Source: Pontederia crassipes
Lineage: Eukaryota; Streptophyta; Magnoliopsida; Commelinales; Pontederiaceae
Reading direction: 5' to 3'
NCBI GenBank assembly: GCA_030549335.1
Contig: CM060191.1
Span: forward strand, 58,291,947-58,355,946
DNA length: 64,000 bases
Part shown: one piece after another, positions 1 to 45,200 of the stretch
How the letters are laid out: every line of letters begins with the position of its first letter
Numbering within the stretch: position 1 is the first letter of the stretch
Program-made: the position numbers and the translations under genes
Notes under the pieces: model-generated
Seen by the model: only the letters and a program-made list of their open reading frames with translations
Databases searched by the model: none
What the model was told of the DNA's origin: nothing

Positions 1-231
1 TCGGGCTGATGGGACCTTCGGGCTAATTACGCCTTCGGGATGATAGGGCTTTCGAGCTAATATTGCGCCTTCGGGCTGATAGGGCCTTCGGGCTAATATT
101 GCGCCTTCGGACTGATAGGGCATTCGGGCTGATATTGCGCCTTCGGGTTGATAGGGCCTTCGGGCTAATTGCGCCTTCGGGTTGATAGGGCCTTCGGGCT
201 AACTATTTTGGTGTGATCCTTCGTCCCCTAT
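1..231. repeat. CCTTCGGG minisatellite
   Basis: Tandem array of short units built around CCTTCGGG followed by CTGATAGGG or CTAATATTGCG. The CCTTCGGG cores start near 15, 32, 49, 68, 85, 104, 121, 140, 157, 174 and 191, so spacing alternates between 17 and 19 bp, a 36-bp higher-order unit in places. The array is cut by the left window edge. It is probably part of a larger repeat whose identity I cannot see. Confidence 0.85.
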
Positions 232-2318: not shown

Positions 2319-2629
2319 CACGGCCGTAAACCACTTTGTCATGCCCGTGAAACATGTAGGCCATCTAGAAGCTCTATCACGACTGTAACGTCTACCATCA
2401 CGCCCGTGAACAAGTTCAGCCCCAAATTGAAGCTTCTGTCACGGTTGTGAGATATTACTTTCACACTTGTGTCGCGTATGACGAGCAGGCTATCTTTTGT
2501 CACGATCGTGCGACGAAGAATCACGATCGTGTCTCTTTGTGACAAATCATGTTGTGTCACGGCCGTGTGTGGGAGAATCACGGCGTGCGATACAAAGCAC
2601 GGTTGTGAAATTTGAATGTCACGGTCGTG
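2319..2629. repeat. Helically phased palindrome array, TCACGRYCGTGA type
   Basis: Twelve copies of a CACGRYCGTG-like decamer (perfect palindromes include CACGGCCGTG and CACGATCGTG) begin at 2319, 2340, 2378, 2399, 2440, 2462, 2501, 2522, 2558, 2579, 2598 and 2620. Gaps are 21, 38, 21, 41, 22, 39, 21, 36, 21, 19 and 22 bp, so the copies come in pairs two helical turns apart and the pairs repeat about every 60 bp. The sequence between copies is not conserved. This could be an array of binding sites for a dimeric protein, or noncoding retroelement sequence. Function is inferred, not shown. Confidence 0.75.
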
Positions 2630-2639
2630 TCCAGAGACT

Positions 2640-4084
2640 ACAACGAAGTTTTGCCGAAAACTCGAGAGAGGACGGTAGAACATAAAACATAATTTAGATT
2701 GATGTACTCTAGATTGATGGAATAGTTCTTTAGAATTTTCTTGATTGAACCCTAGTGTGAGTTCTTCGTGCATTTAGTTGATGAGTTAATAACATGTTTG
2801 ACGATTTTCTCAATTATGCCTGAGATTTGTTCCTTTGAATCCTTTTAGTATCTGAAAATAAGTTTAGAGATTCTTTAGAATTTTCTTAAATCTTTCTCTT
2901 GCATGCCATCACTGAAAAAATCGTCAGACACCCAATTGTATTGTTGTTGATGTGACTTGAAAAAGCCATTAACTTTATACTTCAGTTGAATGCATTTTGA
3001 GATTTAACAAACTAAATTAAAAACTAAAAGGGTCAATGTCTTTTGTTGATTTCAAAATAGGATTTAAAGTCTAAATATTGGTTAAAACAATTTGAGAAAT
3101 TTACTTTATTAATTCACCATCTTTTATCTAAGAATTCATACATAAATAGTGGTATTAATCAAGAGAAATCCTATTAATCAATTTTATTCTTCTAAACCCC
3201 ATTAATCATTTATTTATATTGTTTATCCTTCATATTTTCATAAAACACAAAGTTATTATCTTTTCTCAATTTATAAGTAAGAGAAATTATCAATTATTTC
3301 TCGTCCTAGTGGGAACTATACTTATACTCATTATTTTATTACTTGAATGATTAATGTGTTTGCTAGTGTTTCTAAATTCGCATCATCCCCGCCATGATCA
3401 TTGTAGATAGAAGAGAGGAGGTGCCAAAGGGAGAGGGGGAGGGTGTGGGCGCGGACACTCCTCTTTTTTTTAAAATTATGTATTATATTAGTATTTTAAA
3501 TTTTAAATTTATTGCATTATTATATTAGAATGATAGAAAGGAGGTGTTCTGCCATGTCAGATAACAACATTGGTGAAGGAGAGATAGCGTGGCGGGTGAC
3601 ATCCACGTAGGCACGGTGATCAAGAAAGTGAATTATTGAAGATAAAAAGGGCAGTTATGAAATAAGTCATATTTAAATGATAGTACCATTACAAAGTAAA
3701 GTTGAAAAAAATAATAGAAAATGATGATAAAATTGGAGGGCATTGACCCACTTTTAACCTAAGAGTTAGGCTAACTATATTACTTTTTGCTTGTTATTTC
3801 TATTTGAGTGTCTATCTCCCTTTATTCACAAAAAAAAACATAGCTTACTTTTTAAAATTAACAATTCAAACATTGGAAAGGCGAACTTACTCACGAGTTT
3901 ATCTACTTTTTTTGTTTTCAGGTTTGATGTTGTTAGCAAAATTCCCAAAGAAAAGTCTTCCTAGCAAAAGGAAAGAAAGTATTAATTTGATTCCTTATGA
4001 ATATTTTAATCAATTAATCTTAATGTGGCATGAAAGAAATATCGAACATCACTCGTCTTCTGTAACCGGAGAAAAGGGGATCTT
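2640..4084. other. Intergenic, AT-rich, no gene seen
   Basis: No credible coding sequence. A short GC-rich block at 3412-3465, followed by a T-run, resembles the interior of the Mutator-like family found at 12701-13248, but its ends are not visible. The small open frame at 3804-4127 has no recognisable content. Confidence 0.35.
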
Positions 4085-42207: not shown

Positions 42208-45200
42208 TGTAACGCCCCCAAAATTTGGTCCCAATTTAAATTTGCCGAACCCTAGGCGACGTTACTTTATACAAACCTAATTACATAAAACTTTTGCAGC
42301 GAAAATATAGTCATAAATATAAATATAAAATATCAAGATCGTAACAGCGGAAGACTTTAGCATATAAAAATCCCAAGATACATAAACTGGCCCATGGGCC
42401 TAATGGACTCTAACGTATACCCAATAGAGGGTTCATCATACATAAATGAGTTCAAGTGTAGTACATGACTCAATAAAAGACCCATAAGCCATACATACTT
42501 AACCCTTATAAGGGTTCATCATCATGACATAACAAGAGTAAACAACTTGGGTTGCAGCCCGACAGACCCATGTGCAATGTCGCCGTCATGAGGCTCTCAC
42601 CGCCGAACATAAGCCTCCTCCATACCTGCACGGATCCATGGAGTGCATGAGATTTCTCCTGTTAGAATATGTTGAAGCCCATGCATGCTATGATCTTATA
42701 ACATAATTTCTACATGGTATGGCCTATGCATTTCATCATTATGGAACATAAATCATATGCATGCTATGAGCTACTTATGCACACTATATGGCATGTGAGC
42801 ATATCATCATCGCAAGATATAATAACATGTAACATCATAATCTTTAGGTCATGCATATTATAACTTATCATTATGCTATTGTATATTATGATATTGTCTT
42901 ACTTTACTTTGTCATCTTTGTTCATGACATCATATGATGTGACAAATGGACATTCATAATGCATCATCATAGGTGCCTTCTTCATCTTTATCATCTTTGT
43001 CTTTATGTCCCATTTCATTCATCATTCATCTTTTCATCTTTCATCTTTACTTAGATACTTTCTTATCTTGTCGATTGAGAAATGTAGTGACTCATAGGTC
43101 ATAATCCTCCCCATAGGTAAGGTCTTTATCCTCATCTTTGGATGATGTCTTTATCCTCTCCCGAAAGCGAGGTCTTTATCCTTCCCCGAAGGTAAGATCT
43201 TTATCCTCCCTAAAAGTGAGTTCTTTTCCTACACGTCGGTGGGGTCTTAGGTAGGGTACCGATTGGTCCCAAGTCATAAAAATGTCATTCCTTCATCAAT
43301 ATATACAATCATTCAATACATGTTGCATCTTTTAACCTTATTTAAGGTCATACAAACTTCAAATCATGCAAGGTGTGGACATTCAATCATAACCAATCAT
43401 CTTCCAGAATGGACGACCATTTTAGGTCACGGTCGACCGCTAGACTAGTATCGGGCGACTAATCATATTATCGATCGACCGTTATGATCCTTTCGGACGA
43501 CCAAAACTGAGCTTCGATTCGATCGCTAATCACAGAATGTGATGACTCTCTGAAATGGACGACCGCTGGATATCGATCGACCGATATAGATCAATTGGAC
43601 GATCGAAATTGAGTTTCGGTTCATCCGCTAATCATAGAATGTGACGACTCCTCAAATCGGACGATCGTTGATATATCGATCGACCGTTACATGGCTTTCG
43701 GTCGACCGAAATAGGGCGTTCGATCGACCGCTAATCACGAAATGTAACGACTCCTCTAAAATGGACGACCGATGGGGTATTGGTTGACCGTTGGATAGAG
43801 TTCAACAATACATATGTCTCCATAACGGTCGACCGATAATGTATCGATCGTCCGTTCTTGGACGGCAGACACGATTTTTATATGTTTTCTTTTCAATCTT
43901 GTATACATTGACATATTGAACATATATTGACTTCCAAATATCATATGAGGCATTTCTTAACATTCTTAACACTCTAATCATGACCCACATAAAGTCCTCT
44001 AACATGCTAATCAAGATCATAAATGTACATGAGCTTTAAACATTTTCATAATAAACTAACATAACAACAATAAGCATTCCAATATTAAGCATAATGAGTA
44101 ATAGAGCATGAAGTTATGAAACACATGTATTCTAATCATGGATAGCAATAGAATAGTAATCTAAAGAAACATGAAGCATCAAATGCACATTCCTTAAATC
44201 TTCATCTAAGAACAAAGGGTTTGTTCTTTAATCCCTAATCCACACAATCAAACATCATTAAGAGGAAGATTAAGAAGGCTTGGATCCCCTCAAACATTCA
44301 TCATTCACTAATCATCATATAGGTTATACATGAACATTTCTGCTATCTTAATTTTAAACATGAGAAGGGATTTGCCTAAAGAATATTAAGAGTTACTAAT
44401 CATATTAATACGAACAATACAAGTCATCATAATGAATTAAACATGGATAGTCATAAACATTCTAATACTAAATATGATTAGCAATGAAATAATCACTTTA
44501 ATTAATCATTCAAATATGCAAATAAATCATACTTATCTCCAATCATATAACCTAAGAAGATCCAAGTTGATTTTCAAATCCTTAATCATTCATTTATGCA
44601 TCATTCAAGATTGAGATTAGGACTTTGAATCCCCTCAAATATATCTTTAAGTTTACTTTAGAACCCTAATCCTATTTTTTTTTTTTTCTTCTCTCTTTCT
44701 TCTTTCTTAGCAGCTGACCTCTCCTTGGTGCTCCTCGTTGTTGTCCGTGAGATGGAGGGAGGGAAGCTTAGAGAGAGCGGAGAGTGATGCTATGAGAGGG
44801 GGTGAGTGCTGCTGTAGCTTAGAGTGAGAGAGAGAAGGAGAATGAGATGGTTCTTAGTGTTGCATGATGTGTGCTGGCCGTGAGTGAAGGCAAGAGTGGA
44901 GAGAGAGAATGAGAGACTAGGGAGCTTGGGTGGCTTCTGCTCGTGAGTGGACAAGAGGGAGTTGAGTGAGAGAGAAGAGAACACGAGAGGAGGGTGAGAG
45001 ATTGGGGGTGCTGCCTTGTTGCTTTGGGGGGAGCTCCTGCAGGGTGGAGAGTTTGAGGGAGGAGAGAGAGGAGAGTGTGAGGAAATGGGAGGGGTTAGTT
45101 GTGCTTTAGAGCATTTTAGAGTTATTTATATCTTATTTTATGGGCTTATTATGTTAATGGATTTTTCAAGTGGGTTTTAAATGACTAGTATTTTTTAATC

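Follow-up and report, generated by a model that had tools for sequence, protein, structure and literature searches.

The window analysed here, a 64,000-nucleotide stretch of Pontederia crassipes DNA, contained two clusters of CG palindromes, array A and array B. Array A was found inside a Ty3/gypsy long terminal repeat (LTR), with the following features:

42208 to 44760, minus strand: Ty3/gypsy LTR containing array A; its 3' end lies near 42208 and its 5' end is approximate
43096 to 43230, minus strand: 25-bp tandem array of the GGATAAAGACCT type, adjoining array A in the same LTR
43410 to 43854, unstranded: palindrome array A, 16 CGGTCGACCG-related sites on a ~20.7-bp lattice
43469 to 43775, unstranded: 102/103-bp higher-order unit present three times, each copy spanning five lattice steps

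Array A contained 17 matches to CGGTCGACCG at three or fewer mismatches, with starts from 43410 to 43845; merging one overlapping pair left 16 sites. The start-to-start gaps were 20, 22, 20, 22, 62, 18, 22, 62, 19, 22, 22, 41, 19, 45 and 19 bp. At two or fewer mismatches there were 14 matches, compared with a mean of 0.63 (maximum 4 in 1000 trials) under a first-order Markov null with the composition of the array, and a mean of 0.04 (maximum 2) with the composition of the LTR. The best lattice had a period of ~20.6-20.8 bp over 21 steps (R = 0.95, reached by 0 of 2000 random placements), and on direct reading of the sequence certain vacant nodes contained further decayed words. Copies of the 102/103-bp unit were 72-75% alike. 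The palindrome core was CGG-TCGA-CCG, and the 16 sites (14 matches within two mismatches) exceed the eight repeats from which a Sirevirus repeated-motif (RM) cluster is counted. The neighbouring 25-bp tandem array (43096-43230) is made up of units containing GGATAAAGA words.

A whole-genome DNA search, in which 40 of 3496 candidates were scored, returned at least 67 matches to the window LTR. Its identification as an LTR is based on relatives retaining both LTRs: on contig C5 (L039/L040), a pair of ~2.6 kb each, 83% and 89% alike in two parts, encloses an internal region of ~4.5 kb, and on contig C7 (L041/L042) one LTR of the pair is interrupted. A third array suspected in L041 proved to be a GTC-rich simple repeat. 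The sequence-only reading had placed about 17 decamers in a 3-kb LTR; the count held, while the LTR is shorter (~2.6 kb in relatives) and lies on the minus strand.

Five ORFs of window-family copies matched Retrotrans_gag, RVP_2, RVT_1, RT_RNaseH and SH3_Tf2-1, with rve below the cut-off; these were the five searched of 28 listed ORFs (at least 70 aa, from two broken copies), and all were gag-pol parts. The pol order between two LTRs, protease-reverse transcriptase (RT)-RNase H-integrase, is of the Ty3 type (rve itself below the cut-off), and the closest PDB structure to the RT was that of Ty3 (E 6.6e-62). The carrier is not of the Ty1/copia type that a Sirevirus would have, the relative with the window's LTR having a Ty3-like RT. 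A chromodomain-like stretch at the expected C-terminal place scored 13.6 bits (E 0.063), below the cut-off. We tentatively call the element Tekay/Del-like.

Array B and its repeat were located near the left end of the window:

2319 to 2629, unstranded: palindrome array B, 10 CACGGCCGTG-related sites
2491 to 3005, plus strand: part of the repeat containing array B; L052 has a partner copy that matches it at 76% and 91%

Array B comprised 10 sites within three mismatches of CACGGCCGTG, with gaps of 21, 38, 21, 41, 61, 21, 36, 40 and 22 bp. Its autocorrelation at lag 21 was 0.347, against 0.252 (sd 0.022) for shuffles, and the array is thereby confirmed. The sequence-only reading that the two motifs share no sequence was true only in part: motif identity differs, but both are CG palindromes, and each array has sites containing CGGTCG and CGATCG.

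The partner repeat lies ~10 kb upstream (L052 572-1258), and the repeat containing array B is taken as an LTR. A search for its copies elsewhere, with 40 of 719 candidates given a score, yielded at least 87 matches. The partner repeat is followed by a gag-like ORF (L052 3800-4168) containing a zinc-knuckle-like run; a Pfam search of this ORF gave no match. The element is tentatively termed Athila/Tat-like, and the carrier of array B is probably a gypsy lineage other than that of array A. A 36-bp GC-rich tandem repeat was observed at window positions 1-207, crossing the left window edge, and likewise at L052 8684-8947.

Spacing of the palindromes across the genome

Genome-wide, exact CGGTCGACCG pairs 11-41 bp apart (1-31 bp between) numbered 6439, compared with 3 for the reversed word; the reversed words used as controls are themselves palindromes of equal composition. 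Among the 50 matches listed of these 6439, all on contig C1, the spacings were 20 (7), 21 (13), 22 (19), 23 (5), 25 (1), 31 (2), 32 (1) and 36 (2) bp, placing 44 of 50 at 20-23 bp. Exact CACGGCCGTG pairs numbered 669 against 0 for the reversed word, and the 50 matches listed (contigs C1-C3) had spacings of 21 (22), 22 (17) and 36-41 (11) bp, i.e., 21-22 bp in 39 of 50. For CGATCGACCG, with spacings of 15-30 allowed, there were 895 pairs against 0 reversed, at 20-23 bp in 94 of 100 among the matches listed. Another palindrome, CGGACGTCCG, gave 3 pairs genome-wide and its reverse 1. A general tendency of palindromes to pair was ruled out, four other palindromes (three of them reversed words) giving 0-3 pairs.

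Eight loci caught by the pair pattern (L001-L008) contained sites of the same kind, largely 20-23 bp apart, with different spacers. None of the eight matched the window LTR by BLAST at 1e-5. From the genome-wide pair counts and spacings of CGGTCGACCG and CACGGCCGTG, one homotypic pitch is common to two palindromes, in sequences that show no detectable resemblance to the window LTR. Certain of the eight loci are distantly related to one another, so they may have inherited their sites from a common ancestor while the surrounding sequence drifted strongly, or have gained them independently. A 103-bp tandem duplication with no 21-bp phasing in other families had been named in advance as the outcome that would speak against a spacing rule. 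The unit was present, but an absence of phasing elsewhere was not borne out, and simple duplication as the full cause of the pattern was ruled out by the loci lacking a BLAST match to the window LTR (0 of 8 matching) and the genome-wide pairs.

Array carriers with an identified pol were Ty3/gypsy. The LTR partner of L003 lies in L047, with Ty3/gypsy pol alongside. In the L001/L006 group, an array piece with an identical spacer was found at C1:6506457 and C1:6514912 in one orientation, and the sequence between them (L051) encodes gypsy gag and RT. In L050 (C1:1212300-1216800), two array pieces with the same spacer lie ~5.9 kb apart, and inspection by eye of the interval revealed no pol-like ORF of 90 aa or more; this may be a non-autonomous element that shares these sites. 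The one copia element examined (L073) has LTRs of ~280 bp without an array. A few palindrome-A-like sites lie outside it on both sides (L073 3424-3445 and 8192-8346), and the element appears to have inserted into a stretch with such sites. Three copia RT matches on contig C13 (61286633, 61291215 and 61295797), with 1431-aa open frames and an exact 4582-bp period, suggest that LTR recombination produced a tandem array; many further matches of similar score in the copia RT search also had long open frames.

Mixed CGGTCGACCG-CACGGCCGTG pairs numbered 60 against 0 for the control. They were mainly 24 bp (27/60) or 41 bp (23/60) apart, so the two words can share an array, mostly at another pitch than 21. 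Arrays mixing both palindromes were observed in L065 (C1:1196700-1197550) and L067. To the left of its array, L065 resembles L054 at 79%; at the array start this similarity ends and does not resume. A motif switch in L054-type sequence was therefore given up as the account of L065, since nesting or chimerism is equally likely.

Gaps and sites were analysed base by base in 14 motif-A and 7 motif-B arrays; L002, L004, L006, L007, L055, L057, L063, L066, L072 and other window-family copies were set aside as related or too small. For word A, 65 of the 131 gaps were 20-22 bp long, against 8% under random placement; several of the 14 arrays are mutually related, so the pooled gaps are not all independent. 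For word B the same class made up 30 of the 50 gaps (10% expected). With the genome-wide pairs of both palindromes, these counts bear out the sequence-only proposal of one spacing rule obeyed by differing motifs. Gaps of 10-17 bp were depleted (word A 3%, null 30%; word B 0%, null 27%), as were gaps of 25-35 bp (word A 7%, word B 0%, null 22% for each). A second gap mode lay at 44-48 bp for word A and 36-43 bp for word B and, being unlike between the words, falls outside the common rule. Of the two gap classes originally proposed, 18-22 and 41-45 bp, the first therefore survives as the ~21-bp class and the second does not.

Symmetric flanking bases (GAY...RTC for A, TGK...MCA for B) lengthen both sites to ~16-bp palindromes, GAYCGGTCGACCGRTC in one group and TGKCACGGCCGTGMCA in the other, and each position beyond the ~16-bp site carried 0.00-0.22 bits. 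Spacer identity within arrays was 0.43 (A) and 0.52 (B), compared with 0.36 between arrays and 0.30 and 0.28 in shuffles. This likeness fits duplication followed by drift, as expected.

Retention of the sites and their possible function

Over six pairs of copies, CG was kept at 297 of 355 positions (84%) in the motifs and at 168 of 342 (49%) elsewhere in the same aligned loci, where "elsewhere" includes flanks of poorer alignment and the pooled figure covers six of the nine between-copy pairs run singly. Four window-family pairs, taken as whole loci, kept 243 of 300 in motifs and 133 of 269 elsewhere. Each pair was counted in both directions, which makes p-values too small. The two LTRs of one element differ only by post-insertion change, and here one pair kept 48 of 53 motif CGs and 39 of 50 others (p 0.10) and a second pair 72 of 86 and 48 of 70 (p 0.035). 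Because the advantage of motif CGs is smaller in LTR pairs than between copies, the pattern leans towards selection on active lineages; hypomethylation is a possible cause of CG survival in the sites. In a pile-up of 32 window-family loci, conservation within the LTR was lowest in the array, where non-CG identity was 0.75 in motifs and 0.78 in spacers, against 0.87 elsewhere, and CG retention differed little between motifs (0.77) and the rest of the LTR (0.70).

We propose, with a probability of about one half, that the arrays are clustered sites for host dimeric DNA-binding proteins, serving as an enhancer or anti-silencing platform. Sequence-specific host proteins would bind the ~16-bp palindromes as homodimers. 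At 20-22 bp, approximately two helix turns, neighbouring dimers would sit side by side on one face of the DNA and could bind cooperatively. The clusters would most likely be cis-regulatory platforms of the LTR, either an enhancer or a CpG-rich zone resisting silencing. Tandem duplication would multiply array copies and supply the raw lattice, and selection on transposing elements would retain site and spacing while the spacers drift.

Binding by host proteins is favoured by the pair excess of CGGTCGACCG, CACGGCCGTG and CGATCGACCG, the 20-23-bp spacing and the presence of the same sites in loci of which 0 of 8 match the window LTR. The depletion of gaps of 10-17 and 25-35 bp, the ~16-bp symmetry, the CG survival and the occurrence of the same decamer in a Vitis Sirevirus point the same way. 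Several results count against it: the weak conservation of the array in the 32-locus pile-up, the small advantage in LTR pairs, the placement of mixed pairs at 24 or 41 bp instead of 21, and the promoter evidence. A TATA-like box follows the array, in the assumed sense, in L001, L002 and L008 and not in L003, L006 or L007, and no consistent promoter position relative to the arrays was found in the array loci. A candidate TATA box situated 29-31 bp ahead of the window array was dropped, one of its bases matching in only 10-19% of family copies.

Neutral growth of a minisatellite, in which ~21-bp units are duplicated by slippage or template switching, would make the lattice a by-product and the motif a relic of the founding unit. 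The three-copy 103-bp unit in the window, identical neighbouring spacers in some arrays (e.g., L058 and L070), the higher spacer identity within than between arrays and the poor conservation of the array among window-family copies all agree with such growth. We nevertheless consider it unlikely: the same decamer recurs in loci that share no detectable similarity with the window LTR, CGGTCGACCG pairs outnumber reversed ones 6439 to 3, the ~16-bp site is kept while the spacers are almost without information, and CGs survive in the sites. RNA structure is likewise an improbable explanation. Palindrome hairpins might be diced to 21-22-nt siRNAs, the spacing echoing Dicer lengths, or genomic RNAs might pair in packaging. 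On either strand, none of 100 dinucleotide shuffles folded as well as array A (z -4.2 and -5.8), and palindrome clusters of maize Sireviruses attract small RNAs (PMC10760457). Array B folded weakly (z -1.6, with 4 of 100 shuffles as good), any cluster of one palindrome folds well anyway, and hairpins would require symmetry but would not call for a constant pitch combined with free spacers.

By analogy with VANC of Arabidopsis VANDAL elements, a protein of the element itself might bind its own motif array and remove silencing. The signature of VANC targets is a clustered short motif in tandem repeats that differs between related elements (PMC5735166, PMC10398659), and the arrays resemble it. 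Such a protein is distinctly unlikely here: the internal region is ~4.5 kb, the five ORFs searched (out of 28, among which an extra gene could still occur) correspond to gag, protease, RT, RNase H, integrase and integrase SH3, and one motif is common to several groups and not family-specific. Rotational positioning, with CG-rich words and AT-rich spacers every two turns guiding or excluding nucleosomes and no specific protein involved, would explain a pitch close to two helical turns. It appears highly improbable, the sequence demand looking far too specific (CGGTCGACCG 6439 pairs, CGGACGTCCG 3).

Clustered binding of host dimers might extend beyond the Ty3/gypsy elements, and a wider form of that proposal is tentatively put forward: a spacing code across LTR retrotransposon superfamilies. 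Unrelated elements, and the grapevine copia Sirevirus if its pitch is as presumed, would have been selected for ~16-bp CG palindromes at a two-turn pitch read by conserved host proteins as stacked dimers, the word being changeable and the pitch kept. The arrays bear on which host proteins read plant LTRs and on how elements remain active under methylation, and a site family with thousands of copies, an exact sequence and a fixed pitch offers a direct handle on such proteins. If a single host factor recognises one word in both gypsy and copia elements, unrelated retrotransposons would share a host entry point, and arrays adjacent to genes could rewire host expression.

Comparison with known systems

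In the Drosophila gypsy insulator, sites for the host protein Su(Hw) are clustered inside a Ty3/gypsy-type element. Unlike the arrays described here, the insulator belongs to an animal element, lies in the 5' untranslated region and consists of non-palindromic sites.

The closest plant system is that of the Sireviruses, whose RMs are palindromic, mostly with a CGG-CCG core, and clustered in LTRs, where they form CpG islands (Bousios et al., 2010; PMC2829016); a position of the cluster ahead of the TATA box is a further mark of an RM cluster. The RM of the Vitis Sirevirus is exactly CGGTCGACCG, in 12 copies of which 10 are in the 3' LTR (PMC2829016). The remark in the sequence-only reading that no described system of this form was known to it is thus partly incorrect, an identical word having been in print since 2010. 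Sirevirus carriers are Ty1/copia, and the RMs were called Sirevirus-specific relative to the classic retrotransposons of that set (PMC2829016), whereas the array carriers here with an identified pol are Ty3/gypsy. The available text of PMC2829016 gives no spacing rule for the RMs, and CACGGCCGTG is absent from its Table 3.

In maize Sireviruses, palindrome clusters in the cis-region of the LTR have the motif CACCGGAC-NNN-GTCCGGTG (a 2016 study, as cited in PMC10760457); maize copia elements and Helitrons share a palindrome, and palindrome clusters are linked to small RNAs (PMC10760457). These clusters are like the present arrays in the clustering of palindromes in LTRs and unlike them in motif and in their small-RNA hotspot context; no two-turn spacing is given in the available text of that paper. 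The VANC targets of VANDAL elements are short motifs accumulated in tandem repeats of noncoding regions of the transposon and differ between related elements; these elements have their own VANC gene, and the motif, YAGTATTAY, is not a CG palindrome (PMC5735166, PMC10398659). LTRs of the Del lineage contain a CpG-rich, length-variable and poorly conserved zone (Cruz et al., 2014; PMC4029996). In the available text, LTR CpG islands are predominantly absent from the cluster with all eudicot Del elements, and the term "palindrome" is absent from the main text (PMC4029996).

A full-text literature search covering few subscription papers found nothing on a 21-bp pitch of LTR palindromes, which is weak evidence of absence, and no record of CACGGCCGTG together with a retrotransposon. 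Overall, CGGTCGACCG as a repeated LTR motif of the Vitis Sirevirus has been known since 2010. As far as the literature search shows, the new elements are: the occurrence of CGGTCGACCG in LTRs of Ty3/gypsy elements, the pitch of two helical turns, its observance by a second motif, and arrays in which the two motifs are mixed.
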